Origin: a virus
IMG/VR virus record: IMGVR_UViG_3300035190_000444
Span: 24,586 to 88,585 of that record
Strand: one strand, 5' to 3'
Length of the DNA: 64,000 nt
Position 1 is the first letter of the stretch. Every line of letters begins with the position of its first letter. A model generated the notes under the pieces. The model saw only the letters and a list, made by a program, of their open reading frames with translations. It had not been told where the DNA came from and did no database searches. Positions 20,190 through 59,268 of this stretch are shown here, in pieces. The position numbers and the translations under genes were made by a program.

Positions 20190-20450
20190 ATGAGCATTGA
20201 AATATCCCCAAAAGACTATTGGAAAGCAATGTGCCGAGATGAAGCACAGATGTATTGTTTATTCTTAGTAATAGACGGCAAGAAAGGATGGCGATTCCCT
20301 ACTTATCGAGAATTAATTGGACACGAGTCTACATATCATATAAGTATGTTAGGAGAATGGTATGAAGACGATTTAGTTGATACTAATTTATGCGATACTG
20401 ACGATTTGTACTGTATAGTACCAGTAAGGGATAGAAAAGATGACGATTGA
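20190..20450 (+). CDS. WRxPT-family (Lcl/DUF1566-like) protein 1
   Basis: 86 residues. Core EAQMYCLFLVIDGKKGWRFP then TYREL, ending VPVRDRKDDD. The 'A..YC....DGKKGWR(L/F)PT.EL' block is the conserved heart of the Lcl_C/DUF1566 domain. This is the GKKGW subtype. Weak ribosome site; first gene after the promoter at 20130. Its last 11 bp overlap the next member. Confidence 0.75.
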   Translation: MSIEISPKDYWKAMCRDEAQMYCLFLVIDGKKGWRFPTYRELIGHESTYHISMLGEWYEDDLVDTNLCDTDDLYCIVPVRDRKDDD

Positions 20451-20691
20451 AATTTCACCAAGAGAAACATGGAAAAAACCACTTCCAAAAGATCAAGCAC
20501 AAATGTATTGTTTATTTTTTGAACACAACGGCAGAGGGTGGAGATTTCCTACTCTAGAAGAATGTCTAACTAACATGAGTGGAATTCCAACGATTGTTGG
20601 ATGGTGTTGGAACAAAGAACGCATGGAAAGTGATGATTATAATACTGCAATTTGTGACGTAATTCTAGTTCGAGATGTTAAAAATGCATAA
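20440..20691 (+). CDS. WRxPT-family protein 2
   Basis: 83 residues. QAQMYCLFFEHNGRGWRFPT core, GKKGW subtype variant, with a poorly conserved middle (MSGIPTIVGWCWNKER) and VRDVKNA end. It shares the N-terminal EISPxxxWK segment with member 1, so the two are a local duplication. Confidence 0.75.
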   Translation: MTIEISPRETWKKPLPKDQAQMYCLFFEHNGRGWRFPTLEECLTNMSGIPTIVGWCWNKERMESDDYNTAICDVILVRDVKNA

Positions 20692-20699
20692 ATAGTTTT

Positions 20700-20942
20700 A
20701 TGAAAATAGAAGAACTTTTAAACGAACTAACCTTTCACGGCTCGCAATGCACTAAAGACTGTAGCGGACATCGCGCAGGATGGTCATGGGGTAAAAAGTA
20801 TCCCAATCGTGCTACTACTAACAGAGCTACTCATCAAAGTTTCAACAATGGTGTTGATATTGCTAATGCTAATACCAAAGTCGTTATGATGCCAAATGCA
20901 CGTGGTGCAGGTGGTAAGTTTGTTAAGAAGCCTAAACCATAA
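20700..20942 (+). CDS. Small basic protein with head-targeting-like N-terminus
   Basis: 80 residues. MKIEELLNELT at the start has an LNE site like T4 internal head proteins. CTKDCSGHRAGWSWGKKYP holds a CxxxC-x-GH motif seen, as I recall, in small proteins of other T4-like phages; the end is basic and Asn-rich (GKFVKKPKP). A CATAAATA lies just upstream but too near the ATG to judge. The function suggested, packaged internal protein, is inference. Confidence 0.6.
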   Translation: MKIEELLNELTFHGSQCTKDCSGHRAGWSWGKKYPNRATTNRATHQSFNNGVDIANANTKVVMMPNARGAGGKFVKKPKP

Positions 20943-20944
20943 AA

Positions 20945-20957
20945 GGCCCCGCTGTAA
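20945..20957 (+). repeat. GGCCCCGCTGTAA element 1
   Basis: First of about 14 copies of a GC-rich 12-13-mer; here 2 bp after a stop codon, inside the longer shared form TAAAAGGCCCCGCTGTAA. Confidence 0.85.
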
Positions 20958-21021
20958 ACTCTGCATTACACACATTTTCACACGAGTATAATTACATAAA
21001 CATGTAATACGCTCATACACA

Positions 21022-21050
21022 TTGACAACACACATATACACTTATATACT
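21022..21050 (+). promoter_or_regulatory. Sigma-70-type promoter
   Basis: -35 TTGACA 21022-21027, 17-nt spacer, -10 TATACT 21045-21050; drives the gene at 21128. GGCCCCGCTGTAA elements flank it on both sides. Confidence 0.7.
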
Positions 21051-21077
21051 ATACGCATAACACGTTATATGCAAATA

Positions 21078-21090
21078 GGCCCCGCTGTAA
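21078..21090 (+). repeat. GGCCCCGCTGTAA element 2
   Basis: Exact copy in the leader of the gene at 21128. Confidence 0.85.
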
Positions 21091-21127
21091 CACATACACT
21101 AAATAATTTATCAACCGGAGTAATACC

Positions 21128-21878: not shown

Positions 21879-22097
21879 ATGATTGAACTAGCACCACTAT
21901 CTGATTATAAGATGTCATATGACGAAGCTTGGTTGTACTGTGCTACTCTAACTCATAATAACAAATATGATTGGCGTATTCCAACTGATTACGAGTTTAC
22001 ATACAACGACGAAATTGATGAAGAATCCTTTGATCAATCAGACGAACCACGTCCTAGCCATTGGCGTGTACAACCAGTGAGAACTAAAGATGCTTGA
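21879..22097 (+). CDS. WRxPT-family protein 3
   Basis: 72 residues, AGGAG site. YDEAWLYCATLTHNNKYDWR then IPT, KYDW subtype; acidic middle (DEIDEESFDQSDEP), end VQPVRTKDA. First gene of a nine-member cluster; stop overlaps the next ATG by 8 bp. Confidence 0.75.
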   Translation: MIELAPLSDYKMSYDEAWLYCATLTHNNKYDWRIPTDYEFTYNDEIDEESFDQSDEPRPSHWRVQPVRTKDA

Positions 22098-22359
22098 GAT
22101 TGCACCTATATTAAATGAATATCTAAATTACGACGAAGCATGGCTATACTGCGCTACCTGTATACACGATAACAAATACGATTGGCGTATTCCAACTTAT
22201 GACGAATATGAAGATATTGATGGAATTTCAATATCAGCATATGATGACTCGGATGAAGATGATTTTAGAGATAGCAATCTAAACAGCTTACCAACGGTAA
22301 AAAGTTTAAAATTCTTATCAATAAGAGTTGTACAACCAGTGAGGACTAAAGATGCTTGA
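22090..22359 (+). CDS. WRxPT-family protein 4
   Basis: 89 residues; the region between WRIPT and the PVRTKDA end is expanded and very acidic (DEDDFRD). The EIAP N-terminus, YDEAWLYCAT and the last seven residues are shared with member 3. Confidence 0.75.
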   Translation: MLEIAPILNEYLNYDEAWLYCATCIHDNKYDWRIPTYDEYEDIDGISISAYDDSDEDDFRDSNLNSLPTVKSLKFLSIRVVQPVRTKDA

Positions 22360-22576
22360 GATTGCCCCAATGCCCGCCGGCCGGTTCTCATTTGATGATG
22401 CCTGGTTATATTGTGCTACACTAACATATAATAACAAGTATGACTGGCGCATACCAACTGAAGAAGAATTTTGTGATTACGAAGCAATTGATTGCGATGC
22501 GTTTGATCAGAATGATGAAGGTCTTAAGATAGCTAAAGTAACACATAAAATATGTCCAGTGCGCACTGCTGATTAA
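22352..22576 (+). CDS. WRxPT-family protein 5
   Basis: 74 residues. FDDAWLYCATLTYNNKYDWR core, Glu/Asp-rich variable part, CPVRTAD end. Closely related to members 3 and 4; last of this sub-operon. Confidence 0.75.
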   Translation: MLEIAPMPAGRFSFDDAWLYCATLTYNNKYDWRIPTEEEFCDYEAIDCDAFDQNDEGLKIAKVTHKICPVRTAD

Positions 22577-22584
22577 AATACCAT

Positions 22585-22613
22585 TTGTAAAGTCCTAAGT
22601 TTTGCGCTATAAT
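22585..22613 (+). promoter_or_regulatory. Sigma-70-type promoter within cluster B
   Basis: -35 TTGTAA 22585-22590, 17-nt spacer, -10 TATAAT 22608-22613; starts the next transcription unit at 22636. Confidence 0.7.
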
Positions 22614-22635
22614 AATGTTTTATGTAAGGAGCCAT

Positions 22636-22926
22636 ATGCTAGTAGCCACTTGTCAATCAAAATTTATAACGTATGCCGAAGCTGTTATGTATTGTTTGTT
22701 TTTAGATCACCAAGGAAAGAAAGGCTGGCGGTTGCCAACTTTACTTGAATGGGCAGATACTGCAGATGGCAGACTTACAACTAATACATGGTATCGAGAG
22801 AGTACGAATGAAGAACGAGCATTGCTTGCAAAACAATACAACCATACCCAGCAAGCTATAGAAGCTATGATTGAACCATATGAAAATCGTAAAACAGGTA
22901 TAGCAGTTGCAGTGAGAGACAAATGA
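22636..22926 (+). CDS. WRxPT-family protein 6
   Basis: 96 residues from ATG 22636, chosen for AAGGAG; an earlier in-frame ATG at 22615 is inside the promoter. YAEAVMYCLFLDHQGKKGWR core, GKKGW subtype, long helical middle (NEERALLAKQYN), end AVAVRDK. ATGA overlap with the next gene. Confidence 0.75.
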   Translation: MLVATCQSKFITYAEAVMYCLFLDHQGKKGWRLPTLLEWADTADGRLTTNTWYRESTNEERALLAKQYNHTQQAIEAMIEPYENRKTGIAVAVRDK

Positions 22927-23150
22927 TAGAAATATTATCTAATCCACCTGGGATCAGTCGGAAATTATATAATCGCGATGCAGCTTTTTTGTATGTAATT
23001 ACTCTAGTCCATGATGGGCATGCAGACTGGCGATTTCCTACTCCAGACGAATGGGTTGAAGGTCCTTTAGCGTATATGGCATGGCATCAAGGAAGAATTG
23101 ATAACGATAGATTTTTCAGCTATCACATATACCCAGTGAGAGATTTATGA
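22923..23150 (+). CDS. WRxPT-family protein 7
   Basis: 75 residues. NRDAAFLYVITLVHDGHADW then RFPT, with GHADW in place of KYDW; end YPVRDL. ATGA overlaps on both sides. Confidence 0.75.
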   Translation: MIEILSNPPGISRKLYNRDAAFLYVITLVHDGHADWRFPTPDEWVEGPLAYMAWHQGRIDNDRFFSYHIYPVRDL

Positions 23151-23446
23151 AATATCATAAACCATTAAGTGTACATTATCTACCAGTAGATCCAAATCCT
23201 AACAGGATGTCTTTACATGAAGCAGTTATGTATTGTACATTCTTAGAGTTTGAAGGAAAGAAAGGATGGCGATTACCCACTAGTAGTGAAGTAGATGAGA
23301 TTTATGCTCTCAGAGAAGCAACTCGGTGTAATTCGTTTATATACAAACCAAAGTATGTGTGGACACAAGATGATTTAGACAATCCGTCATCACACGATCC
23401 TCACAATCGCGGACGTGTATTGGCAGTAAGGACTAAGCATGATTGA
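23147..23446 (+). CDS. WRxPT-family protein 8
   Basis: 99 residues. HEAVMYCTFLEFEGKKGWRL then PT, GKKGW subtype, with a 20-residue N-terminal extension and a longer variable part containing YVWTQDDLDNP; end AVRTKHD. Confidence 0.75.
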   Translation: MKYHKPLSVHYLPVDPNPNRMSLHEAVMYCTFLEFEGKKGWRLPTSSEVDEIYALREATRCNSFIYKPKYVWTQDDLDNPSSHDPHNRGRVLAVRTKHD

Positions 23447-23690
23447 GCATGCAAACGAATCGCCGCACAAGATAACATGTGACGAATCATGGTTGTACTG
23501 TGCTACCCTAACTCATAATAACAAGTATGATTGGAGGATGCCAACATATGACGAACGAATGAAATTAGAATTCTTTGATACATGGGATATAGTTGACTAT
23601 ATTGGTAGGCCTAACGCTGCGTGGTTAAACTATAATGCAACCTGTTTTATTATACCAGTGAGGGATATAAATGAAAAAAACAAAGTATAA
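23439..23690 (+). CDS. WRxPT-family protein 9
   Basis: 83 residues. CDESWLYCATLTHNNKYDWR core, MPTYDER, end IPVRDINEKNKV. Its last 20 bp overlap the start of an unrelated basic gene. Confidence 0.75.
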   Translation: MIEHANESPHKITCDESWLYCATLTHNNKYDWRMPTYDERMKLEFFDTWDIVDYIGRPNAAWLNYNATCFIIPVRDINEKNKV

Positions 23691-24024
23691 ATCAGCTGAA
23701 GAAAAGCGTAAAGCATTAGAAGCTGAGAAGCAATGGTTAGCTATGGCAAAGCAACACGGATTATCTACCAAACCATCTAGTTCTAAATCTCTTAAAGACG
23801 CACTTAAGAAACAGTCATATACTCCGCCTGCACCAACATATAGAGGTAGTGATAGTAAACCTCCCAGTTTAGTTACAACTACTAAAGGTGGCGGCAGTCG
23901 TATTGAACCTCCTAAGTATACAGGTACTTTGATTAAAGGATGTGCGCAAATGCACAAAAGTAATTTAGTTCCTGTTATCAACCAAGAGCAAGCAACTGAG
24001 ATTTCACGGATGCGTAGAGGATGA
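23671..24024 (+). CDS. Basic unknown protein embedded in WRxPT cluster
   Basis: 117 residues, not of the WRxPT family. N-terminal Lys/Glu-rich helix (KSAEEKRKALEAEKQWLAMA), Pro/Ser/Lys-rich linker (PPAPTYRGSDSKPPS), then GTLIKGCAQMHKSNLVPV, a short motif I recall from other phage small proteins. Overlaps both neighbours, so it is cotranscribed. Function unknown. Confidence 0.6.
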   Translation: MKKTKYKSAEEKRKALEAEKQWLAMAKQHGLSTKPSSSKSLKDALKKQSYTPPAPTYRGSDSKPPSLVTTTKGGGSRIEPPKYTGTLIKGCAQMHKSNLVPVINQEQATEISRMRRG

Positions 24025-24230
24025 TAGAATTCGCCCCAACGTTCTTCCCTCAGCTAACATATGACGAAGCATGGGTATACTGTCTTATATTAGAACATAA
24101 TGGGCACAAGGATTGGCGCATGCCAACTCATAAAGAATGGGCTAGCAGAAATGAATTACTTGGTTGGTATGAAAACGCAAAAACTGTAAAGAAGTTTCGA
24201 ATTGTTTGTCCAGTAAGGGAACAAATATGA
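24021..24230 (+). CDS. WRxPT-family protein 10
   Basis: 69 residues. YDEAWVYCLILEHNGHKDWR then MPTHKEW, very short variable part, end CPVREQI (VRE instead of VRD). Starts by ATGA overlap. Confidence 0.75.
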   Translation: MIEFAPTFFPQLTYDEAWVYCLILEHNGHKDWRMPTHKEWASRNELLGWYENAKTVKKFRIVCPVREQI

Positions 24231-24640
24231 AATGGTTTAACCGAATATTCAATTGTAATGTATATTTAAAATTTGACGTACCTACGAATCCTTATGGCGA
24301 CAACAGAGTGCGTTATGTTGTAGGAGTCCCGGTTAATCACTATGAGAAAAAAATCATTGAAATCGTTTATACTGGACTATTATGTTCTAGTGCTGATGAA
24401 GCAACGATGCATTTGTTTATGCTGAGTAAGCATGATGGAAAGAGAGGATGGCGACTACCTACAATGAATGAAGCTATATACTGTTCGAACCTATCAGTAA
24501 TTAGACATTTCTCTGATTGGAATTCACTCAGAGCTCCATTAGAATTAGTTTTAGTAAGAGATGTTACAGAAGATGAGTATAACTATTACAATGGACCTAT
24601 AACACGTTTCTTTAAGCAGTTTGCGCAGTGGACTTATTGA
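24227..24640 (+). CDS. WRxPT-family protein 11 with N-terminal extension
   Basis: 137 residues from ATG 24227 (ATGA overlap; AAGGGA upstream). An extra 60-residue N-terminal part (MKWFNRIFNCNVYLKFDVP) precedes ADEATMHLFMLSKHDGKRGW-RLPT; end LVLVRDVTEDEY plus a 15-residue tail. The largest single-domain member here; the extension has no known match. Confidence 0.7.
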   Translation: MKWFNRIFNCNVYLKFDVPTNPYGDNRVRYVVGVPVNHYEKKIIEIVYTGLLCSSADEATMHLFMLSKHDGKRGWRLPTMNEAIYCSNLSVIRHFSDWNSLRAPLELVLVRDVTEDEYNYYNGPITRFFKQFAQWTY

Positions 24641-28203: not shown

Positions 28204-28416
28204 ATGATTGAATCAGGAATAGGTTCTGATCATTTTCTAACATACGATGAAGCCTGGCTCTTTTGTATCACTACTACTCTCTACAATAAGTATGATTGGA
28301 GAATGATGACACGACGTGAGTTTATAGAGTATAAACCAAGAGAAAAATGGTTCGAAGTCACCGGCGTGTCGCATTTAATAGCCCAGGTACTACCAGTGAG
28401 AGATGTAAATGATTAG
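28204..28416 (+). CDS. WRxPT-family protein 12
   Basis: 70 residues. YDEAWLFCITTTLYNKYDWR then MMT instead of xPT; end LPVRDVND. Follows the GP88-like gene by 7 bp and starts cluster C. The lost Pro makes it a divergent copy. Confidence 0.7.
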   Translation: MIESGIGSDHFLTYDEAWLFCITTTLYNKYDWRMMTRREFIEYKPREKWFEVTGVSHLIAQVLPVRDVND

Positions 28417-28660
28417 AAGAGATTTAGCTTACAATACACACTTAGAATACTTAGATTATTCTAACTATAAAATGGATTGGGACAGCGCATGGTTATACTG
28501 TGCTACCTGTACATATAAAGACATGTATGATTGGCGAATGCTTACTCCATATGAATTTCGTAATGATCCATACATACACAGCTGGCATGCCGCTTCACGG
28601 AAGAATAACTTTCCAGCATTTGTATTACCAGTTCGAGATAGAGGCCCCGCTGTAACATGA
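28409..28660 (+). CDS. WRxPT-family protein 13, C-terminus altered by GGCCCC element
   Basis: 83 residues. WDSAWLYCATCTYKDMYDWR then MLT; LPVRDRGPAVT at the end. The last five codons come from the GGCCCCGCTGTAACA element (28643), so the element has inserted at, or been kept in, the 3' end of the gene. Confidence 0.7.
   Translation: MIRRDLAYNTHLEYLDYSNYKMDWDSAWLYCATCTYKDMYDWRMLTPYEFRNDPYIHSWHAASRKNNFPAFVLPVRDRGPAVT
28643..28655 (+). repeat. GGCCCCGCTGTAA element 6 (inside a gene end)
   Basis: Read as Gly-Pro-Ala-Val in member 13, followed directly by the ATGA junction with member 14. Confidence 0.85.
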
Positions 28661-28875
28661 GAATAGAAATATCACCAACAACTAATAAAGAATTTACATA
28701 CGATGAAGCAATAATGTACTGCTTTTTTCTTATTATAGACGGCAAAAAAGGATGGAGACTACCTACAAGAGAAGAATATAATTCTTCTGTCAAAATATGG
28801 GGATGGCATCAAGATGATGATAGATCATCAACATCTGATCTTTTCAAAGTAACCCCAGTGCGGGACTCTGACTAA
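28657..28875 (+). CDS. WRxPT-family protein 14
   Basis: 72 residues. YDEAIMYCFFLIIDGKKGWR then LPTREEY, GKKGW subtype; end TPVRDSD. Last gene before an internal promoter. Confidence 0.75.
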   Translation: MRIEISPTTNKEFTYDEAIMYCFFLIIDGKKGWRLPTREEYNSSVKIWGWHQDDDRSSTSDLFKVTPVRDSD

Positions 28876-28883
28876 ATTATCAT

Positions 28884-28912
28884 TTGCTTACCAATAAATA
28901 TTTTGCTATAAT
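28884..28912 (+). promoter_or_regulatory. Sigma-70-type promoter, standard leader
   Basis: -35 TTGCTT 28884-28889, 17-nt spacer, -10 TATAAT 28907-28912; drives 28949. Confidence 0.8.
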
Positions 28913-28948
28913 ATATTTTTATTTACAAACCTTACGGAGTACATAACT

Positions 28949-29155
28949 ATGGCACACGTAGAACATGGACCAAGATCCGAAAACAAAATGACTTATGATG
29001 AAGCAATAATGTATTGCTTCTGGTTCACTCACAATGGCAAGAAAGGATGGCGTCTTCCAACCTTTCATGAATTTCTAGACGGGAACTCGTGGTATAAGGA
29101 TGCTGAGATTACTAAACGCAAGTGGTACGTAAAACCTGTGAGGGACATAAAATGA
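28949..29155 (+). CDS. WRxPT-family protein 15
   Basis: 68 residues, CGGAG site. YDEAIMYCFWFTHNGKKGWR-LPT core, one of the shortest variable parts, end KPVRDIK. ATGA overlap with the next gene. Confidence 0.75.
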   Translation: MAHVEHGPRSENKMTYDEAIMYCFWFTHNGKKGWRLPTFHEFLDGNSWYKDAEITKRKWYVKPVRDIK

Positions 29156-29469
29156 ACTTTGAAATAGCACCACGCGACAAATGGTTAGCAGAAACTCCTT
29201 ACGACCAAGGAGCAATGTATTGTTTATTCCTTGAAATTGATGGAAAGAAAGGATGGCGATTGCCAACTAATGAAGAAGCTGACATGTTAGTAAACACAGT
29301 AGATCCGGGTAATGATTTTGAGAATCCCGAAGTCCTTCCAGAGTTAGAGGAGTTTAATTCCTATTGGTTTGATGCTGATCATTGGGGGTTTTGGACACAC
29401 GAAGATACAGTTGACGACTATGATCTTGACGAATTGTTTACTGCAATTCCAGTAAGGGACATAATATGA
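29152..29469 (+). CDS. WRxPT-family protein 16
   Basis: 105 residues from ATG 29152 (ATGA junction; an upstream in-frame start at 29122 is inside the previous gene). YDQGAMYCLFLEIDGKKGWR-LPT core; long acidic middle with FNSYWFDADHWGFWTHED; end IPVRDII. Confidence 0.75.
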   Translation: MNFEIAPRDKWLAETPYDQGAMYCLFLEIDGKKGWRLPTNEEADMLVNTVDPGNDFENPEVLPELEEFNSYWFDADHWGFWTHEDTVDDYDLDELFTAIPVRDII

Positions 29470-29759
29470 ACTTTGAAATAGCACCAAAAACAACGGAGAT
29501 ACAAGCCACGTGGGATGAAGCAGTTATGTATTGTTTTTTTCTTGAAATAGATGGAAAGAAAGGATGGAGACTGCCTACTAAAGAGGAATTAGATTATATC
29601 TACCATTCAAAAAATGATTTCATTGATGCCTACTACTGGTCCTCTACTGAGTACAATGGCAGCAGCGCCTGGGGTCAGGTTTTCACCAGTGGCACCCAGT
29701 TCAGCTCCAGTAAGAACGGCGGCAGCTACTACGTTAGAGCAATAAGGGACATAATATGA
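29466..29759 (+). CDS. WRxPT-family protein 17, closest to full Lcl/DUF1566 domain
   Basis: 97 residues. WDEAVMYCFFLEIDGKKGWR-LPTKEELDYIY, then YYWSSTEYNGSSAWGQVFTS and SYYVRAIRD. The YWSST...AW...VR half is the second conserved block of the Lcl_C/DUF1566 domain, mostly lost in the shorter relatives, so this member anchors the family assignment. Its 29660-29740 segment is GC-richer than its surroundings. Confidence 0.85.
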   Translation: MNFEIAPKTTEIQATWDEAVMYCFFLEIDGKKGWRLPTKEELDYIYHSKNDFIDAYYWSSTEYNGSSAWGQVFTSGTQFSSSKNGGSYYVRAIRDII

Positions 29760-29833
29760 ACTTTGAAGTCGCACCTAACGGTGCTCGAACTGATAATTGC
29801 CATATGCAAAACTTAACTGGAGAACTACGATGA
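29756..29833 (+). pseudogene. N-terminal remnant of a WRxPT-family gene
   Basis: 25 codons: MNFEVAPNGARTDNCHMQNL and a stop. The first seven residues match the MNFEIAP start of members 16 and 17, and the rest is unrelated. Linked by ATGA overlaps to members 17 and 18. Reads as a truncated copy or a recombination scar kept as a coupling peptide. Confidence 0.6.
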
Positions 29834-30306
29834 GAAAATCCCTATCACATAAAGAAATCCTAATACTAAAACTCAATAATCTTTTAGCTACTTCTGAATC
29901 ACTCGAAGACAAACTTGTAACCGAGAATAATCAATGGCAATGCCGTGCAACAGTCCTACGCAGCGATATTCAAAATTTGATTGACTATGTAGAATGGTCG
30001 GTAGAAGAGAATAGTATGAATATTGAAATAGCACCAAAATCTGCCGAGGAGTCATGTAGTTGGGATACTGCACGAACATATTGTTTATTTCTTAACTTTG
30101 ATGAAAAAACTGATTGGAGACTTCCAACAAAAGAAGAACTAAATCAAATCTATGAATCAGATAATGATTTTCGTAGTGGTCGATACTGGGCTTCTAATGA
30201 ACAAAGTGTAGATACTGCTTGGAGTCAGAGTTTTGAAAATGGTAGCAGATACCCTAACTTTAAGTTCCACGGTGGCCTCTACGTTAGACCAGTAAGGGAC
30301 TTATGA
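29830..30306 (+). CDS. WRxPT-family protein 18 fused to an N-terminal helical segment
   Basis: 158 residues from ATG 29830, which has GGAG and an ATGA junction. Residues 1-62 are helical (SHKEILILKLNNLLATSESL) and unrelated; from about residue 63 MNIEIAPKSAEE begins a normal member: DWRLPTKEELNQIY, RYWASNEQSVDTAWSQSF, YVRPVRDL. It keeps the longer Lcl-like second block. An internal start at 30016 could also make the domain alone. Confidence 0.7.
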   Translation: MRKSLSHKEILILKLNNLLATSESLEDKLVTENNQWQCRATVLRSDIQNLIDYVEWSVEENSMNIEIAPKSAEESCSWDTARTYCLFLNFDEKTDWRLPTKEELNQIYESDNDFRSGRYWASNEQSVDTAWSQSFENGSRYPNFKFHGGLYVRPVRDL

Positions 30307-30548
30307 TTATTGATTATATGATTGATCGTGCTCCGCCACGTATAGTAAACAACTATGAAGAGGCTTGGCTGTATTGCCTTACCTGTAATCATGATGGGCA
30401 TAATGATTGGAGGTTACCTACGGTAGACGAATGGCAATATTCGTCTACAACCTCAATGCCTTTAGAAGCTTATTATGAAAACAATTATTTCTTTAAAGTT
30501 GAACCGGCTATGCAGAATAAGGCAGTTCCGGTACGTGAAGTAAAATAG
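30303..30548 (+). CDS. WRxPT-family protein 19
   Basis: 81 residues. NYEEAWLYCLTCNHDGHNDW then RLPTVDEW; end VPVREVK. ATGA-type junction with member 18; last gene of cluster C. Confidence 0.75.
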   Translation: MIIDYMIDRAPPRIVNNYEEAWLYCLTCNHDGHNDWRLPTVDEWQYSSTTSMPLEAYYENNYFFKVEPAMQNKAVPVREVK

Positions 30549-31874: not shown

Positions 31875-32219
31875 ATGAAAATTACATTTGCAGGTTTAAA
31901 GACAACTGGTAAAGTAGATACCGTTTGGGTTGTTATTGAGTTAGGTAAACATCGACAACAAGAATGGTATTCTGATTATGTAATTGCCTGGGGCAGACGA
32001 GGCGGCAAGTTGCAATCTATGACTCGATTAGGATATTATCCACCATCGTTAGACTATAACTCTGATCGTTACAGTAGGTTTAGTACTATTGGCAAACTAA
32101 TCAATAAGAAACTTAACAAAGAGTATGAAAGTATCGATGAAACTCGGTTAGCTGAAGTATATCCAGAGTTTAAACAAGATTTAGATAAACTTGCATTTTG
32201 GGAAACATTGAAACTATGA
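31875..32219 (+). CDS. WGR-like protein, copy 1
   Basis: 114 residues from ATG 31875 (AGGA). KTTGKVDTVWVVIELG and SDYVIAWGRRGGKLQSM resemble the WGR domain found in nucleic-acid-modifying proteins; AEVYPEFKQDLDKLAFWE at the end. The next gene is a tandem paralogue. The assignment is by eye only. Confidence 0.55.
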   Translation: MKITFAGLKTTGKVDTVWVVIELGKHRQQEWYSDYVIAWGRRGGKLQSMTRLGYYPPSLDYNSDRYSRFSTIGKLINKKLNKEYESIDETRLAEVYPEFKQDLDKLAFWETLKL

Positions 32220-33436: not shown

Positions 33437-33646
33437 ATGGCAGTAGGTATTAAATCACCTCAACGGATGCCATATGATGAAGCATTTCTTTATTGTATGA
33501 CATCTAACGAGAATGGATACAAAGATTGGCGGTTACCATTTGAACACGAAACTAGAGACTTAACAACTTTACTCATTTGGTGTAATGAAGATATTTTTAA
33601 AGATACTGACCATCAATATTATGCGATCCCAGTAAGAACGGTTTAA
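33437..33646 (+). CDS. WRxPT-family protein 20
   Basis: 69 residues from ATG 33437 (another in-frame start lies at 33410). YDEAFLYCMTSNENGYKDWR then LPFEHE, with Phe in place of the Thr; end IPVRTV. A singleton outside the clusters, sharing a promoter with the gene upstream. Confidence 0.7.
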   Translation: MAVGIKSPQRMPYDEAFLYCMTSNENGYKDWRLPFEHETRDLTTLLIWCNEDIFKDTDHQYYAIPVRTV

Positions 33647-36727: not shown

Positions 36728-36943
36728 ATGCCTACTGTTACTGTTACTGATGAAAAGTTAATTGAAATGTTTAGCGAAGCTAAAATCCTTGTACAAGGTG
36801 ATGACTCCTATGTAATTGATTTTGCAGATGCTGAAGAGATCCATGTACATCACGAAGACACTGGCGAGGAGTTTGTATTGTCATATGACGACATTGATCT
36901 TGAACATGACTTAGTATATGGCTTAACTCTTTTAAATAGATGA
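36728..36943 (+). CDS. Unknown small acidic protein
   Basis: 71 residues, AGGAGCG site. Acidic with two His (EEIHVHHEDTGEEF). ATGA overlap with the WRxPT gene that follows. Confidence 0.55.
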   Translation: MPTVTVTDEKLIEMFSEAKILVQGDDSYVIDFADAEEIHVHHEDTGEEFVLSYDDIDLEHDLVYGLTLLNR

Positions 36944-37203
36944 TTAAGTACGCAGACAATTTGACCACTGAACCTTTTCGAAAAGGTTCATTTAAACCCA
37001 AACACAAGATGTCTCTTGACGAAGCAGTAATGTTTGTTACGTTTTATGAGGAAGACGGCATTAAAGGTTGGCGTCTTCCAACAGAACAAGAGTCTATAAA
37101 CAACCCAGACCTTATAGGTTGTTGGCATCAAGAAGATTTAAACACCAGCTGGCCACCCGATGAGCATTACTATGTACGTCCAGTTAAGGACATTACTCCT
37201 TAG
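36940..37203 (+). CDS. WRxPT-family protein 21
   Basis: 87 residues. LDEAVMFVTFYEEDGIKGWR then LPTEQE, GKKGW subtype, with an extra 20-residue start (ADNLTTEPFRKGSFKP); end RPVKDITP (VKD for VRD). Singleton; overlaps the end of a homing endonuclease gene by 11 bp. Confidence 0.7.
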   Translation: MIKYADNLTTEPFRKGSFKPKHKMSLDEAVMFVTFYEEDGIKGWRLPTEQESINNPDLIGCWHQEDLNTSWPPDEHYYVRPVKDITP

Positions 37204-39992: not shown

Positions 39993-40024
39993 GAATCCCA
40001 GTACGAGATATAAATGACAATTGA
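39993..40024 (+). pseudogene. C-terminal relic of a WRxPT-family gene
   Basis: In the frame reading ATC CCA GTA CGA GAT ATA AAT GAC, the peptide IPVRDIND appears and stops at TGA 40022-40024, exactly the usual 3' end of a family gene, with the next member (40014) starting inside it. The rest of the older gene is gone. Confidence 0.6.
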
Positions 40025-40235
40025 AATCGGACCTCGTACATCTACCCCTATCCATTATGATGAAGCACTACTCTATTGTATGACTTTATCTTACAAAGGG
40101 CACTACGATTGGCGTTTGCCAGTTGCCAGCGAAGCAATTTTTGAATTTGCAATATGGGTTGATGAGAATGGTATATTATTTGCAAAATCGCATCCATATG
40201 CAAAGTATCCTGCTATTCCGGTACGAGATATATAA
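40014..40235 (+). CDS. WRxPT-family protein 22
   Basis: 73 residues. YDEALLYCMTLSYKGHYDWR-LPV core (Val for Thr), end IPVRDI. Preceded by a relic of another member's C-terminus. Confidence 0.75.
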   Translation: MTIEIGPRTSTPIHYDEALLYCMTLSYKGHYDWRLPVASEAIFEFAIWVDENGILFAKSHPYAKYPAIPVRDI

Positions 40236-40739: not shown

Positions 40740-40808
40740 TATGAAACATTTAGTTTTTGTGATGATCAGTTTACTACAATCCCTGTGAGATCTATTAATG
40801 GCAATTGA
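40740..40808 (+). pseudogene. C-terminal relic of a WRxPT-family gene
   Basis: Reading frame from 40740 gives YETFSFCDDQFTTIPVRSIN then a stop at 40806-40808, that is the last third of a member (IPVRS for IPVRD) with the usual overlap into the next gene's start at 40798. No start or WRxPT core remains. Confidence 0.65.
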
Positions 40809-41010
40809 GATTGGTAAACAATTTCCAAATCTAGTAACGATTGATGAAGCCGTTATGATTGCCTTTATGACCCCAGGATGGCGGCTTCCTACAGAACAAG
40901 AGTACATTGACCATTACGAGAGCTTAAAGTTTTGTTGGGATCAATCAGATATAGCACAGTCAAATCCAAACATAAGAAACGGCTATCTTAAATTAGTGAA
41001 AGATTGCTAA
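40798..41010 (+). CDS. WRxPT-family protein 23
   Basis: 70 residues. IDEAVMIAFMTPGWRLPTEQ core lacks the YC and shortens the HNGKK loop; end LKLVKDC (VKD). A divergent member starting inside an older relic. Confidence 0.65.
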   Translation: MAIEIGKQFPNLVTIDEAVMIAFMTPGWRLPTEQEYIDHYESLKFCWDQSDIAQSNPNIRNGYLKLVKDC

Positions 41011-41037: not shown

Positions 41038-41286
41038 ATGATCGAAGTTAATGCGCCATGTACTATTCAACTTGGTATTCCGAGTGAAAACCCAATGACA
41101 TATGACGAAGCCGTTTTGTACTGTTTCTTTTATAATCAAGAGGGAAGTACAGGATGGCGAATGCCGACAGCTATTGAGTGGCAACGCTATGCTCCAGATA
41201 TTAGTCCGTGGGCGTTAGGTGATAACGACGACTATTTACATATGATAGATACCTTTTATGTTGCACTTCCAGTACGTGATATATAA
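41038..41286 (+). CDS. WRxPT-family protein 24
   Basis: 82 residues, AGGAGG site. YDEAVLYCFFYNQEGSTGWR-MPT core; end LPVRDI. Followed by a promoter. Confidence 0.75.
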   Translation: MIEVNAPCTIQLGIPSENPMTYDEAVLYCFFYNQEGSTGWRMPTAIEWQRYAPDISPWALGDNDDYLHMIDTFYVALPVRDI

Positions 41287-43882: not shown

Positions 43883-43915
43883 ATGTTTTTACTTACACAA
43901 ACTGCGGAGCGTAAT

Positions 43916-53654: not shown

Positions 53655-53816
53655 ATGCCAAACTACACACGTAACGAGTTAATCCAATTATTAGATCGTG
53701 CAATGTCTTATATTGAGAACCCAGGCTTGTATTCAGATAAAGAACTAACAGATATGTTAGACGAAATGCAAGATGTTATTGACACTGAGCAAACTGTAGA
53801 ACATACTTGGGAGTAA
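53655..53816 (+). CDS. Small helical protein
   Basis: 53 residues, AAGGAG site. NYTRNELIQLLDRAMSYIEN then YSDKELTDMLDEMQDVIDTE. All helical, acidic. Three bases before the secreted protein gene. Confidence 0.6.
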   Translation: MPNYTRNELIQLLDRAMSYIENPGLYSDKELTDMLDEMQDVIDTEQTVEHTWE

Positions 53817-54411: not shown

Positions 54412-54609
54412 ATGAGCTTTATAACATTAAACAGAGTAGTCCATAAGTCAACAGTACAAGTAGACACATACGAAATAGACATTAGAGTAAAAGACATTGT
54501 AGCATTTCACGATGGTCTGATTGTAGTAGGAAGCCATCAGTTTAATATTGTTGAATCAAAAAGAGACATCCACGATAGAATACGTGAAGCAGGTACAACA
54601 TGGGAGTAA
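54412..54609 (+). CDS. Unknown small protein
   Basis: 65 residues, AAGGA site. LNRVVHKSTVQVDTYEIDIR then beta strands (VKDIVAFHDGLIVVGSHQFN). No promoter is obvious between it and the terminator upstream. Overlaps the first member of cluster D by 10 bp. Confidence 0.55.
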   Translation: MSFITLNRVVHKSTVQVDTYEIDIRVKDIVAFHDGLIVVGSHQFNIVESKRDIHDRIREAGTTWE

Positions 54610-54968
54610 TACCAACTAACCCGCCACCAACCGGATCATACTTTTCACGTCCTGTAATCAGTAACAGCAATATGCAAGAGTTAAGGACAGGACTTAGCGA
54701 ACAAGTTATTAAGCCGGTACTTAGATGGGCAGGCAGAACAATGTTAAACTTAGAAATAGCCCCTAGGTCACAAAACAAAATGTCATTTGACGAAGCTCAG
54801 ATGTATATTCTATTTTGCAGACATCTTGGCCATAAGAACTGGAGACTTCCAACGCGTGAAGAATGGGAAACTATTAACGGTTGGGAGACACCTGTATGGC
54901 TCGTTGAAAAGGACAACGTAGTAATGGATAAAGACTGGTACGTACAGCCAGTGAGAGATAAAAAGTGA
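54600..54968 (+). CDS. WRxPT-family protein 25 with N-terminal extension
   Basis: 122 residues. First 47 residues (NPPPTGSYFSRPVISNSN ... VIKPVLRWAGR) are not part of the family; from MLNLEIAPRSQ (54741) a normal member begins: FDEAQMYILFCRHLGHKNWR-LPT, end QPVRDKK. The start at 54741 is also possible. Opens the 20-gene cluster D. Confidence 0.7.
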   Translation: MGVIPTNPPPTGSYFSRPVISNSNMQELRTGLSEQVIKPVLRWAGRTMLNLEIAPRSQNKMSFDEAQMYILFCRHLGHKNWRLPTREEWETINGWETPVWLVEKDNVVMDKDWYVQPVRDKK

Positions 54969-55207
54969 TTGAACTAGCGCCACATGAGCTATGGAAGTAT
55001 GACGTAAACAAACATGAAGCTAGGCTGTACATATTCATGCTTAAAGGCTATAGAATGGGTACATTAGGAGAGATGCAATCATTAATCGACGCTATACGAG
55101 AAGTTGATCATGAAATGTGGGACGCATGGACACTAGATGCAATAGATAGCGACGCTATACCAGACGACGAAACCGGAACAGCTATACCACTGAGAGATAT
55201 AACATGA
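54965..55207 (+). CDS. WRxPT-family protein 26, divergent
   Basis: 80 residues, GTG start (GTGA junction). KHEARLYIFMLKGYRMGTLG keeps the spacing but has YRMGT for WRxPT; end IPLRDIT. Confidence 0.65.
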   Translation: MIELAPHELWKYDVNKHEARLYIFMLKGYRMGTLGEMQSLIDAIREVDHEMWDAWTLDAIDSDAIPDDETGTAIPLRDIT

Positions 55208-55446
55208 TAGAATATGGAAAGAAATCAGAACAAGACTTAAACTATGATGCGGCATTTATGTATTGCTTTTGGCATGAGCCTGTAGGCACCTGGAGGCTTC
55301 CGACTGAGCAGGAATACTTCCAAAAGATGCGACTAAAACACCCAAGTGGTATAATTCCCACTTGGTATGAAGACAGAGATCAGCTTGCAGAGAAAGTACA
55401 TCAACAACCTGCTAAAATGCGAGTAGTGCCTGTACGATCGCTATGA
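55204..55446 (+). CDS. WRxPT-family protein 27
   Basis: 80 residues. YDAAFMYCFWHEPVGTWRLP core with a shortened loop; end VPVRSL. ATGA junctions on both sides. Confidence 0.75.
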   Translation: MIEYGKKSEQDLNYDAAFMYCFWHEPVGTWRLPTEQEYFQKMRLKHPSGIIPTWYEDRDQLAEKVHQQPAKMRVVPVRSL

Positions 55447-55700
55447 CCCAGGTTAGTTACTATGCTAATAATATAAGGTTTCACCATTTGATCGAAGTAG
55501 CTCCAACGTCTAATGAAATGATGACGTACGACCATGCTAAGATGTATATCATGTTCTATGAACACAATGGACATAGAGATTGGAGGTTGCCTACGTTACA
55601 AGAATGGCTAAGCCATAATCCACCATTGATAGGGTGGGATGATCACGGAGAACATAGTAGTGATATAGTTCGTTATGTAACCCCAGTGAGAGACCTATGA
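55443..55700 (+). CDS. WRxPT-family protein 28
   Basis: 85 residues with a 15-residue extra start (TQVSYYANNIRFH). YDHAKMYIMFYEHNGHRDWR-LPT; end TPVRDL. Closely related to member 30 (YDNAKLYILFYEYNGHRDWR). Confidence 0.75.
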   Translation: MTQVSYYANNIRFHHLIEVAPTSNEMMTYDHAKMYIMFYEHNGHRDWRLPTLQEWLSHNPPLIGWDDHGEHSSDIVRYVTPVRDL

Positions 55701-55927
55701 AACTTGAACTAGCTCCCCCATCCATTCAACTACACAGAGATGAAGCATTCCTATATGTTTGGACTTGTACACACAACAACAAGTATGACTGGCGTCTGCC
55801 CACCCTACATGAATCAAGCAAACATAATCTTACTGGCTGGAATGAATATGACTTATATGTATTTGAACATGAGATATCATATGACCCAATCTATTGGACA
55901 ATTACCCCAGTGAGGGATATAAAATGA
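55697..55927 (+). CDS. WRxPT-family protein 29
   Basis: 76 residues. RDEAFLYVWTCTHNNKYDWR-LPT, KYDW subtype; end TPVRDIK. Confidence 0.75.
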   Translation: MKLELAPPSIQLHRDEAFLYVWTCTHNNKYDWRLPTLHESSKHNLTGWNEYDLYVFEHEISYDPIYWTITPVRDIK

Positions 55928-56139
55928 TTGAATTAGCTCCAGTATCTACAGAAAGGATGACGTATGACAATGCTAAATTGTACATCCTGTTCTATGAATA
56001 TAATGGACATAGAGATTGGCGTCTGCCTACATTCACTGAATGGATCACCCGCGACGATGTATATGGGTGGGATGATAAAGAACCATCAATCGATTATGGT
56101 CCAAAACTTCGTGTTGTAACCCCAGTGAGAGACTTATGA
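55924..56139 (+). CDS. WRxPT-family protein 30
   Basis: 71 residues from ATG 55924 (ATGA junction; upstream start 55894 lies inside the previous gene). YDNAKLYILFYEYNGHRDWR-LPT; end TPVRDL. Confidence 0.75.
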   Translation: MIELAPVSTERMTYDNAKLYILFYEYNGHRDWRLPTFTEWITRDDVYGWDDKEPSIDYGPKLRVVTPVRDL

Positions 56140-56417
56140 TCGAAATAGCCCCAAGATTCGCACAACGTATGACATACGACGAAGCCATATTAAACTTATT
56201 CATGTTTGTACATAATGGAAAGAAAGACTGGCGTATGCCTACCGAATACGAATACTACTACGGTCCTGCCCGAGCTATAGAGAAGTCGTGGCATCGCGAA
56301 AAAGTAGATGAGTTTACTAACTGGTACTTAACCCCTGTGAGAGATGTCAAATTTGTTTACATACCCAGCATAACGTGTTATAATAAAGACATACTGTTTA
56401 ATAAGAGATACAGATGA
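56136..56417 (+). CDS. WRxPT-family protein 31 reading into a promoter
   Basis: 93 residues. YDEAILNLFMFVHNGKKDWR-MPT; after TPVRD the frame continues 22 residues through the promoter at 56356-56384, suggesting that the promoter was inserted at the gene's end. Confidence 0.7.
   Translation: MIEIAPRFAQRMTYDEAILNLFMFVHNGKKDWRMPTEYEYYYGPARAIEKSWHREKVDEFTNWYLTPVRDVKFVYIPSITCYNKDILFNKRYR
56356..56384 (+). promoter_or_regulatory. Promoter inside cluster D
   Basis: -35 TTTACA 56356-56361, 17-nt spacer, -10 TATAAT 56379-56384; drives members 32 onward. The only promoter seen within this 4.7-kb cluster. Confidence 0.75.
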
Positions 56418-56674
56418 TAGAACTAGCACCTAAAGAACTATGGCTTGAACAATCTACACAAAACGAAGCATTGATGCACATATTCTTCCAAAAGGGTTAT
56501 CGCTTGCCTACATTTGAAGAACTACCTCAAATGAGACAAATACTAAACCGAGAAGTAATATTAGTGTGGACTGAAAACACAGTACGTGACCCATTGTTTG
56601 AAATGTTTGATCTAGATAACAGGTCAGTGGTTCCCTTTAAAGCTAAATTGATTCCAGTGAGGGATGTATGTTAG
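56414..56674 (+). CDS. WRxPT-family protein 32
   Basis: 86 residues. QNEALMHIFFQKGYRLPTFE core has Tyr for Trp and a shortened loop, as in member 26; end IPVRDVC. Confidence 0.7.
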   Translation: MIELAPKELWLEQSTQNEALMHIFFQKGYRLPTFEELPQMRQILNREVILVWTENTVRDPLFEMFDLDNRSVVPFKAKLIPVRDVC

Positions 56675-56886
56675 CGTTTGGACCAAAATTAGAAAGAGGT
56701 ATCAACTCATATGACGATGCGTTTTTGACCTGTTTAACATGTGACCATAGGGGATATTATGATTGGCGTTTACCAACCAGAAAAGAGTATTTTGACGAGG
56801 ATTTAATGTCTGGAGCGTGGTATGAAAGCAAGCCATCATGGCGCAGAGCATGGTATGTGATACCAGTGAGGGATAAGAATGATTGA
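56668..56886 (+). CDS. WRxPT-family protein 33
   Basis: 72 residues. YDDAFLTCLTCDHRGYYDWR-LPT; end IPVRDKND. Confidence 0.75.
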   Translation: MLAFGPKLERGINSYDDAFLTCLTCDHRGYYDWRLPTRKEYFDEDLMSGAWYESKPSWRRAWYVIPVRDKND

Positions 56887-57094
56887 AGGAACACCTATAG
56901 AATGTAACCTAACATATAACCGAGCTTTTCTTTATATGCTAACTTGTACACACAACGGACATAACGACTGGAGGTTTCCTACTTATCAAGAGACCTATAA
57001 CATAGGCATTGGATGGTCATGGACTGATTCTCCAGCATTCCAAGATCCAGACATTGACCTAATGCATCTGATATTGGTAAGGGATATATGTTAG
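56879..57094 (+). CDS. WRxPT-family protein 34
   Basis: 71 residues. YNRAFLYMLTCTHNGHNDWR-FPT; Trp-rich variable part (IGWSWTDSP); end LVRDIC. Confidence 0.75.
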   Translation: MIEGTPIECNLTYNRAFLYMLTCTHNGHNDWRFPTYQETYNIGIGWSWTDSPAFQDPDIDLMHLILVRDIC

Positions 57095-57306
57095 AAATAG
57101 GCCCATGCTCATCTCATACACTAATATTAGATGAAGCCTGGCTATACTGTATTACACTAGAACACGACGGACATAGAGATTGGAGATTGCCTACTTGGCA
57201 GGAAATGAATAGCCATCAAATGAGAAACTGTAGAGGTTGGACGAACCCGTACTATCTTAGTTCTAGTCTTAGCCAAATGCTTGTTTACCCAGTGAGAGAT
57301 TTATGA
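57088..57306 (+). CDS. WRxPT-family protein 35
   Basis: 72 residues. LDEAWLYCITLEHDGHRDWR-LPT; Ser-rich variable part (YYLSSSLSQ); end YPVRDL. Confidence 0.75.
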   Translation: MLEIGPCSSHTLILDEAWLYCITLEHDGHRDWRLPTWQEMNSHQMRNCRGWTNPYYLSSSLSQMLVYPVRDL

Positions 57307-57521
57307 TTGAAACAGGATACCAATCAGCACAACAATTAGAGTATGACGAAGCACTGCTGTATTGTTATACCTGTACCGATAGACGAAAATATGACTGGCG
57401 TATGCCTACATCAAAAGAACACAACCACTTCCCATCTACTACTTGGCATATTGATAGAATACCCGATATGGTCCTATGGATGGAACTTTATGTAATTCCA
57501 GTGAGAGATAACGATGTTTGA
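57303..57521 (+). CDS. WRxPT-family protein 36
   Basis: 72 residues. YDEALLYCYTCTDRRKYDWR-MPT, KYDW subtype; end IPVRDNDV. Confidence 0.75.
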   Translation: MIETGYQSAQQLEYDEALLYCYTCTDRRKYDWRMPTSKEHNHFPSTTWHIDRIPDMVLWMELYVIPVRDNDV

Positions 57522-57741
57522 ACAAGCACCTATGATCAAGTTTGTTACTATAGATGAAGCTGAACTATACACGATGACGCTAACCTATAACAATCACTAT
57601 GATTGGAGGCTTCCTACTGTAATGGAACTACGGCACGCTACGCCTGCTCTACCCAAACGCCCAGTATGTTGGCATCAGCATGATCTTATGGGTCAGTTGG
57701 ATGATATGAAATGCGCATTGATCCCAGTGAGAACTATATGA
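57514..57741 (+). CDS. WRxPT-family protein 37
   Basis: 75 residues. IDEAELYTMTLTYNNHYDWR-LPT; Pro/Ala-rich variable part (HATPALPKRPV); end IPVRTI. Confidence 0.75.
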   Translation: MFEQAPMIKFVTIDEAELYTMTLTYNNHYDWRLPTVMELRHATPALPKRPVCWHQHDLMGQLDDMKCALIPVRTI

Positions 57742-57965
57742 TTGAATTAGGACCACATGACGACTGCTTTGTAACGATAGACGAAGCAATGTTATACATC
57801 TATACCCTAACCCACAACAACAAATATGACTGGCGGTTTCCGACATCAGCAGAATATGATGACACTGATGAGATGCCTCCTATGACCTGGCATAGCACCT
57901 GGTATGACTATAACAATAAGGATTTAGAACGAGCAGTTTACCCAGTGAGAGATAAAGATGATTGA
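57738..57965 (+). CDS. WRxPT-family protein 38
   Basis: 75 residues from ATG 57738 (ATGA junction). IDEAMLYIYTLTHNNKYDWR-FPT; end YPVRDKDD. Confidence 0.75.
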   Translation: MIELGPHDDCFVTIDEAMLYIYTLTHNNKYDWRFPTSAEYDDTDEMPPMTWHSTWYDYNNKDLERAVYPVRDKDD

Positions 57966-58188
57966 AGCTAAAATTTTATCACACTCAAAATCGTGTGAAG
58001 AAGCTGAACTTTACATTTGGACACTAACACACGAAAACAAGTACGACTGGCGTTTCCCAACACGCGATGAATGCGTAAAACTTACAGGTGGTCCAAGTCC
58101 AATATGGTGTGATTCACTAATCAAAAGTCCATATATAGAGCCACTCGACCGCTTTTATTTAATAGCAGTGAGAGATACAGATGCTTGA
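57958..58188 (+). CDS. WRxPT-family protein 39
   Basis: 76 residues. CEEAELYIWTLTHENKYDWR-FPT; end IAVRDTDA. Lacks the usual E-x-AP start. Confidence 0.75.
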   Translation: MIEAKILSHSKSCEEAELYIWTLTHENKYDWRFPTRDECVKLTGGPSPIWCDSLIKSPYIEPLDRFYLIAVRDTDA

Positions 58189-58384
58189 GTTTGCTAGTCA
58201 ATCCCATTTACTCCCTTATTACGAATCTTGGCTTTACTGCGTTACTTGTACTCACAACAACAAGTATGACTGGCGATTTCCTACTATTGGAGATGTAACA
58301 GAGTACCCCAGTATTATCAAGAAAAGTTTTTCACAACCATACGATTGGTTCTATGTAACCCCAGTGAGAGATAAAGATGATTGA
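58181..58384 (+). CDS. WRxPT-family protein 40
   Basis: 67 residues. YYESWLYCVTCTHNNKYDWR-FPT; short variable part; end TPVRDKDD. Confidence 0.75.
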   Translation: MLEFASQSHLLPYYESWLYCVTCTHNNKYDWRFPTIGDVTEYPSIIKKSFSQPYDWFYVTPVRDKDD

Positions 58385-58601
58385 ACAAGCCCCTAAGACT
58401 ACTGACAAATTTGATGCCTATAACGCCGAACTATACATATACACTTGCACACACGAAAACAAATACGACTGGCGAATGCCTACTATAAGAGAATGTGCAG
58501 ACTTGATTATAACCGGTAGTTGGAATGCTAGTGATTTTAATCGTGAGACACTGGTACCATATATGTGGAAGGTATCCCCTGTGAGAACTAAAGATGATTG
58601 A
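58377..58601 (+). CDS. WRxPT-family protein 41
   Basis: 74 residues. YNAELYIYTCTHENKYDWRM then PT; end SPVRTKDD. ATGATTGA junctions at both ends. Confidence 0.75.
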   Translation: MIEQAPKTTDKFDAYNAELYIYTCTHENKYDWRMPTIRECADLIITGSWNASDFNRETLVPYMWKVSPVRTKDD

Positions 58602-58791
58602 AGCAGCCCCTATGTCACATTTAATGCCATACGACGATGCATTCTTATATGCGATAACTTGTACACACAACGACAAGTATGACTGGCGAATGCCAACAGT
58701 TGGCGACTTCTCCAATAATGTTAAACTACGAACAACTGATCAACGCCGCAACATACAATTCTGCCCAGTAAGAGGATCAAGAGATGATTGA
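58594..58791 (+). CDS. WRxPT-family protein 42
   Basis: 65 residues, the shortest intact member. YDDAFLYAITCTHNDKYDWR-MPT; end CPVRGSRDD (VRG for VRD). Confidence 0.75.
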   Translation: MIEAAPMSHLMPYDDAFLYAITCTHNDKYDWRMPTVGDFSNNVKLRTTDQRRNIQFCPVRGSRDD

Positions 58792-58999
58792 ACAAGCTAC
58801 TACTAAACGACGTAACTTCTCATATGACGAAGCTTGGCTATATGTAGCCACTTGCACCCATAAAAAGAAATATGATTGGCGACTACCAACTCATAAAGAA
58901 CACTTTGAAAGACAATATAGACCTCTGATACTTGGACAATGGTATGAGCGAGACTATTTCGCTCTCCAAACATATGTAACCCCTGTGAGAACCTTATGA
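58784..58999 (+). CDS. WRxPT-family protein 43
   Basis: 71 residues. YDEAWLYVATCTHKKKYDWR-LPT; end TPVRTL. Confidence 0.75.
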   Translation: MIEQATTKRRNFSYDEAWLYVATCTHKKKYDWRLPTHKEHFERQYRPLILGQWYERDYFALQTYVTPVRTL

Positions 59000-59268
59000 T
59001 CGAACTTGCTCCCTACTTATACCAAACGACACAAGACCAAGCATTCTTATTCACTATAACCTGCACACACAAAGACAAATACGACTGGCGATTCCCTACT
59101 ATGTTTGAAATCATATATAGTGGTATGTTTGAGAATTTAGATCCATGGAGATCTGATAATGTATATCCTAAACTTATTCATTTGATTAATCTGACATACA
59201 CAGCTGTTCCGGTAAGAGATTATCCTTTTCCAACTAGACCTCCCGGACTTTATGTACAAAAGCAATGA
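58996..59268 (+). CDS. WRxPT-family protein 44 with C-terminal tail
   Basis: 90 residues. QDQAFLFTITCTHKDKYDWR-FPT; after VPVRD an extra 16 residues (YPFPTRPPGLYVQKQ). Last gene of the cluster, followed by 560 bp of non-coding DNA; the tail may reflect loss of the normal stop at the border. Confidence 0.75.
   Translation: MIELAPYLYQTTQDQAFLFTITCTHKDKYDWRFPTMFEIIYSGMFENLDPWRSDNVYPKLIHLINLTYTAVPVRDYPFPTRPPGLYVQKQ

Follow-up and report, generated by a model that had tools for sequence, protein, structure and literature searches.

Why a virus should encode the same small domain several tens of times over is the question raised by a 64,000-nucleotide stretch (the window) of the viral contig IMGVR_UViG_3300035190_000444, an 88.6-kb record referred to here as G000, of which the window covers bases 24586-88585. 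Between window positions 20190 and 59268, 44 members of one protein family are encoded, all on the + strand. They were collected with an iterative profile hidden Markov model (HMM) applied to all translated frames of the window. The search converged with E-values of 2e-13 to 2e-32 for the members, while the best non-member frame in the window gave about 0.9 and no other frame came near significance. Because of this gap the count of 44, which the initial annotation had also reached, can be regarded as exact and far beyond chance. A (W/Y)RxPT regular expression retrieves 39 + strand frames; the five further members found by the HMM are degenerate. Every other protein family in the window is limited to two members at most, and the expansion is therefore specific to one domain.

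Shortened Lcl_C domains in four arrays

The units are free-standing proteins of 65-144 aa, most of them of about 72-80 aa, organized in four clusters of 2, 9, 8 and 20 units and five singletons (Table 1). Adjacent members overlap, with a spacing of -4 (ATGA) at 16 junctions and of -8 (ATGATTGA) at 11 junctions. The clusters, singletons and overlap types had been described in the initial annotation and are borne out, with three corrections of starts. For the member listed at 24206 (TTG), ATG 24227 is the more likely start and overlaps the preceding stop by 4; in frame 29797-30306 the start of the member is more probably ATG 30016; and the 54744 member is part of a gene starting at 54600, the N-terminal extension of which is conserved in relatives. 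Relics had been claimed as well. One C-terminal piece, at 40740-40808, is a relic, and the remaining candidates score like chance.

All 44 members are united by the profile of the family itself. When compared with PF07603 (Lcl_C, also DUF1566), 26 of the 44 match at E<0.1, 16 at E<=0.001 and two above the curated cut-off, the last two being full-length members that both sit in array 3. A profile search of solved structures returned weak matches, including the Legionella Lcl domain and TvpA, a protein of a diversity-generating retroelement (DGR). We modeled one full-length and one typical mini member with AlphaFold2. The full-length model (29466-29759; predicted local distance difference test score, pLDDT, 96.3) has as its best PDB match the C-terminal domain of Legionella Lcl, 8q4e (Foldseek E 1.4e-6, template-modeling (TM) score 0.84), followed by many C-type-lectin-like proteins. 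The mini model (pLDDT 89.2, predicted TM score 0.76) matches almost exclusively C-type-lectin-like PDB entries, with the small lectin-like domain of poxvirus A33 in first place (TM score 0.68, E 0.53). Two phage proteins, one with DUF1566 and one with collagen repeats, are among the matches in BFVD.

In an alignment with other Lcl domains, the AWxVxFxxG hairpin, which lies between the Trp and the final VR, is missing from the mini members. The full second-half pattern YWSS...AWxVxFxxG...VRxVR is present only in the two full-length members; the minis retain the Trp and the final VR. The predicted structures confirm descent from the C-type-lectin-like Lcl_C family and place both modeled members in the same fold class. 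Since the mini fold is of this class too, most members are shortened, Lcl_C-derived domains, as had been proposed from the sequence. The units share with Lcl_C and 8q4e the fold and the W..A..YC...G.KDWRLPTxxEL...W...VRxVR core. In contrast to them, most units measure only about 72-80 aa; collagen and signal sequences are absent, and tens of paralogues exist as separate proteins.

The variation between copies is concentrated in one part of the domain. Over 128 sequences, the mean column entropy is 3.44 bits at residues 37-63, compared with 1.79 at residues 12-36 and 2.03 at residues 64-72, in agreement with the diversification between two fixed anchors noted at the outset. The scaffold is fixed and comprises a strand (MIExAP), a helix (YDEAxLYC), DWRxPTxxE, a Trp and a strand (VxPVRD). 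Residues 37-63 differ between almost all copies, with only E39 and W51 conserved, and the surface has no conserved stretch apart from the scaffold motifs. No member contains a hydrophobic stretch above 1.6 or any membrane or export feature, and we rejected membrane or exported proteins for lack of a hydrophobic segment. Most members are acidic (mean net charge -3.7, isoelectric point (pI) 4.1-9.4), with about 1.7 cysteines each; mimicry of DNA was rejected since charge and pI are too varied.

Coding junctions and exchange of units

With the start sites aligned, units in four genomes share a common junction, approximately ACCAGTGAGAGATAAATATGATTGAA. In it the codons for P-V-R-D (CCA GTG AGA GAT; GTGAGRGAY for VRD) form a purine-rich sequence resembling a Shine-Dalgarno site, with the next start suitably spaced. 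Codon choice supports this double role. The Arg of PVR is AGA or AGG in 104 of 114 coupled units as opposed to 12 of 33 uncoupled ones (P = 4e-10), while the equally conserved Arg of WRxPT is AGA or AGG in only 27 of 113 coupled units (P = 9e-27 relative to PVR), and the Val of PVR is GTG in 83 of 114 coupled and 13 of 33 uncoupled units (P = 7e-4); since units are counted as sequences and not as independent events, these P values somewhat overstate the evidence. With a broader definition of coupling and a near-duplicate genome removed, the proportions for PVR are 81/96 and 8/19 (P = 2.6e-4) and that for WR is 30/116 (P = 3.5e-18). The contrast between VR and WR codons is present in each lineage separately. 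PVRD may be conserved in part for translation, although VR is conserved across Lcl domains in general. In coupled units the terminal PVRD codons also provide the Shine-Dalgarno site for the gene that follows, so that a unit forms a self-contained cassette, and one inserted at the junction of about 25 bases should be translated at once. Two tRNA genes lie between the arrays, tRNA-Met (CAT) at 44975-45048 and tRNA-Arg (CCT) at 47207-47283. The latter reads AGG, a codon otherwise rare here but frequent among the PVR codons.

To follow the turnover of units, we compared G000 with its sister G002. There are 38 reciprocal best units with a median identity of 93.5%, while 6 units are private to G000 and 11 to G002. 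With more distant relatives, 8 (G004) and 6 (G003) units are shared at >=60% identity. The shared units include the leader genes of array 4, in unchanged order, and the first of these (54600-54968) has orthologues of 84% identity in both G003 and G004. Within array 4, nine ends of G000/G002 alignment blocks fall <=25 nt from a unit start or stop, the unit spacing being about 215 nt, and the differences between the sisters include one loss, insertions and an altered order of whole units. The simplest mechanism for such exchange is homologous or illegitimate recombination. The similarities of the N- and C-terminal halves of units are weakly correlated (r = 0.18), which either mid-gene recombination at WRxPT or faster divergence of the C-terminal half may explain, and we do not claim that the genes are mosaics. 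By analogy only, the units resemble integron cassettes in being small modular genes traded whole within an array; unlike in integrons, the exchange point is a coding junction.

Selection was estimated from Nei-Gojobori counts on the 38 orthologous G000/G002 pairs, with 46 open reading frames (ORFs) as controls. The ratio of nonsynonymous to synonymous changes (dN/dS) is 0.256 for whole units, 0.151 for the core and 0.277 for the controls. In the variable part it reaches 0.354 (bootstrap 95% interval 0.26-0.50), and positive selection between WRxPT and PVRD, for which the initial annotation proposed a test, was not detected between the sisters. These values indicate that the units are maintained as working proteins and that their diversification, as far as it can be read from the sister genomes, is not an ongoing rapid point change.

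Table 1. Positions in the window of the units, the relic, an example junction and nearby promoter-like sequences.
Feature	Position	Strand	Evidence or comparison
Promoter-like TTGACT-17-TATACT ahead of array 1	20130-20158	+	promoter scan
Array 1, 2 mini-Lcl units (starts 20190, 20440)	20190..20691	+	family HMM
Array 2, 9 units (starts 21879, 22090, 22352, 22615, 22923, 23147, 23439, 24021, 24227)	21879..24640	+	family HMM
Array 3, 8 units (starts 28204, 28409, 28657, 28949, 29152, 29466, 30016, 30303)	28204..30548	+	
Full-length Lcl_C member, 97 aa, with YWSST and AWxxxF hairpin	29466..29759	+	PF07603 48.9 bits, over cut-off
Second full-length Lcl_C member, likely start ATG 30016	30016..30306	+	PF07603 57.3 bits, over cut-off
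Singleton unit	33437..33646	+	family HMM
Singleton unit; G004 orthologue 79% identical	36940..37203	+	family HMM
Singleton unit	40014..40235	+	family HMM
Relic, C-terminal piece of a unit (FTTIPVRSINGN)	40740..40808	+	intact syntenic unit in G004 ending TTIPVRSTNGN
Singleton unit	40798..41010	+	family HMM
Singleton unit; G004 orthologue 94.5% identical	41038..41286	+	family HMM
Promoter-like TTGACA-17-CATACT upstream of array-4 region	53779..53807	+	
Leader gene of array 4, conserved N-terminal extension and mini-Lcl domain (from 54744)	54600..54968	+	
Array 4, 20 units, head to tail, gapless (starts 1-10: 54744, 54965, 55204, 55443, 55697, 55924, 56136, 56414, 56668, 56879; starts 11-20: 57088, 57303, 57514, 57738, 57958, 58181, 58377, 58594, 58784, 58996)	54744..59268	+	family HMM
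Typical mini unit, 72 aa, chosen for structure prediction	57088..57306	+	
Example cassette junction, CCAGTGAGAGATAAAGATGATTGAA-type; also a G000/G002 rearrangement boundary	57944..57965	+	PVRD codons as Shine-Dalgarno, stop/start overlapped

Relatives and genomic setting

Relatives were found by protein, pattern and sub-alignment profile searches of the viral collection. Two jumbo-phage records, G002 (372,016 bases) and G004 (372,173 bases), carry 49 and 47 units, respectively; among fragments there are 25 in G001, 28 in G003 (a 98-kb fragment), 22 in G005, the arrays of which seem identical to part of those of G004, and 10 in G006. The arrays are, as far as these records go, lineage-wide and not the oddity of a single genome. 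Two open frames contain two fused units each (G003 2283-2738 and G004 8853-9296). A lone, more Lcl-like unit lies outside the arrays on the opposite strand of G004 (G004:C1:290872-291072, -) and is a candidate for an older copy.

The large terminase of G004 is closest to those of Wroclawvirus (53%), Sinorhizobium phage Phosso (49%) and Pectobacterium phage CBB (44%), a likeness that places the lineage among the T4-related jumbo phages. Wroclawvirus (PA5oct, Paride) and Phosso are thus the nearest named relatives by terminase, yet the family profile found no member at E<=1 in PA5oct, Paride, Phosso, CBB or XbC2, in a run that included no positive genome; the same profile does detect units in the array-bearing relatives. 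A tblastn search of 50,697 phage records with the family consensus (E<=10) gave chance-like matches only and no convincing relative. The match in XacN1 was rejected as a family member, being an HNH endonuclease. An Lcl-type domain is present in 12 other viral records, as one or two longer, full-length copies each. Bacterial relatives have single or few domains, often inside longer proteins. Since there are no arrays in the named relatives and one or two copies elsewhere, the expansion appears limited to one lineage within the collections searched. A virion structural protein (phrog_1645) of the window (3470-5566, -) has its nearest relatives among cyanophage proteins (45%), despite the Wroclawvirus-like terminase of the relatives.

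Between 19.5 and 60.1 kb of the window, 17 near-perfect sigma70 promoter matches lie on the coding strand, compared with 1.4 +/- 1.3 in shuffled sequences. A strand bias of promoters (coding:other) is also seen in the array regions of G002 (15:0), G003 (3:0) and G004 (5:0 and 6:1); it was not found on the structural side of G000 or in the rest of G003. The structural and tail-fibre genes are mainly on the strand opposite the units. The enrichment of sigma70 promoters, together with this position of the structural genes, suggests that the arrays are transcribed early by the host polymerase. A near-identical promoter-like sequence, TTTACA-N17/18-TATAAT, recurs in at least 9 copies on the + strand of window positions 19500-60100.

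What the units may do

We consider the chances about even that the arrays are a phage repertoire of small cytosolic binders built on a shortened Lcl_C scaffold. This reading is favored by the fixed scaffold, the hypervariable face, the many copies, the cytosolic character, the probable early expression, the rapid turnover of content and the purifying selection; among the binding domains, defence inhibitors and adaptor parts suggested in the initial annotation, the probable early expression and the lack of export signals favor binders that act inside the cell. In bacteria, lectin-fold FGS domains are linked to diversified intracellular conflict systems (PMC7159879), and intracellular recognition by a lectin fold therefore has a precedent. 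According to the proposed scheme, host RNA polymerase would read the arrays early and the units would be translated in succession, and the cell would receive tens of different binders together. The variable face of each unit would bind a different host or competing-phage protein, most plausibly blocking defence systems or redirecting host machinery, and phage lineages would adapt by trading cassettes. The more specific proposal, that some fifty exchangeable lectin-fold cassettes are deployed jointly and early against host or rival proteins and owe their diversity to trading and not to a retroelement, is put forward tentatively, with slightly less confidence than the repertoire itself.

Several observations weigh against a repertoire of binders. 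The EPN/QPD and WND motifs that form calcium and sugar sites in C-type lectins are not conserved in residues 37-63 of the 128 sequences, and the ligand of the face therefore cannot be guessed. The Foldseek matches of the mini model all have E-values above 0.5 individually, and none is significant. Positive selection of the kind expected in an arms race was not detected in the orthologous pairs, a test blind to units that have no orthologue. Most clusters lack a strong promoter in the adjacent 250 nt and would rely on read-through, and the early timing is read from consensus promoters rather than transcripts. The anatomy of the arrays is established, whereas their function is inferred, and nothing in the analyses connects a unit with a defence system. 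Other ORFs of the region, considered as possible partner genes, have almost no annotated relatives.

Of the alternatives, the one that survives best, though we think it improbable, is that the units regulate transcription or replication by recognizing particular sequences or proteins. Their copy number, genome type and small size resemble those of the zinc-ribbon family of Bacillus phage G, an expansion of about 35 copies that was called unprecedented and whose members were taken for transcription factors or for structural proteins that bind DNA (PMC7824862). Both cases are large, lineage-specific expansions of a small domain in a jumbo phage. However, the units have another fold, more copies, and ribosome-binding sites embedded in their junctions. 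Lectin-like folds are not known to bind DNA, and the mostly acidic members have no common basic character.

We give a shade less credit to the possibility that the units are adhesins of the virion surface, a receptor-binding panel comparable to the lectin-fold tail proteins that DGRs diversify in other phages. Variable binding proteins are commonly built on Lcl_C and related lectin-fold domains (PMC4159848; PMC6642488), and the two phage proteins matched in BFVD would fit such a role. On the other hand, neither a tail-fibre domain nor a fusion to a fibre was found in the 44 units or their relatives, and the units are encoded opposite the tail-fibre and structural genes in a sigma70-rich region unlike the structural side. 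Equally doubtful is an assembly of the units as hetero-oligomer subunits of one large structure, the stoichiometry of which would be set by translational coupling. The coupling is tight, two double-domain fusions occur naturally (in G003 and G004), and lectin-like domains often dimerize. Such a fixed assembly is hard to square with the rapid turnover of copy content between relatives, nor is any surface stretch conserved beyond the scaffold motifs.

A neutral or selfish expansion, in which the junction favors unequal recombination and the copies have little function, is still less probable. The short repeated junctions, the turnover of whole units and at least one relic are what it would predict, but the dN/dS values (0.26 overall and 0.15 in the core) are near that of neighboring genes, and 44 open frames stand against one clear relic. 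Diversification of the units by a DGR can hardly be correct: DUF1566 was the domain most often targeted by DGRs in human microbiome data (PMC4159848), and in the units, too, the variable region is C-terminal, but no reverse transcriptase (PF00078) was found in five related records, two of them of about 372 kb, in a search with positive controls, and the synonymous and nonsynonymous differences between sisters are ordinary. DGR-associated lectin-fold proteins (Mtd, TvpA, and the DUF1566 and FGE-sulfatase targets) do share with the units a fixed scaffold with a C-terminal variable face that serves as a general binder; unlike in those proteins, diversity here is spread across many copies that are gained, lost and shuffled, with no sign of hypermutation between sisters.

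No description of Lcl_C arrays in phages was found in the open-licence literature, in keeping with the earlier impression that the expansion is undescribed, and FGS lectin-fold domains are reported as absent from 224 surveyed jumbo phages (PMC7824862). The domain itself is already known; what is new is the scale of its expansion, its shortened form and its organization as cassettes. The lectin fold is known to support massive sequence variation, but in prokaryotes this has been linked chiefly to surface or sensor proteins mutated by retroelements. In these phages the fold has been multiplied into tens of standing copies, and a coding motif that serves as ribosome-binding site makes them plug-in cassettes. 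If the proposed binders act on host proteins, each array would be a natural catalogue of phage-selected binders, and the role of the many small, uncharacterized early genes of jumbo phages would become testable unit by unit.

Some other genes of the window were noted. Two further tandem gene duplications, of two copies each, are located at 43461-44257 and 31875-32629. Two related HNH/NUMOD3 homing-endonuclease-like genes are on the strand opposite the arrays (37193-37900 and 45336-46055, both -). At 14595-17437 a putative amidoligase (PF12224) is followed directly by a phrog_17056-related gene, and the two are possibly a peptide-modifying pair.

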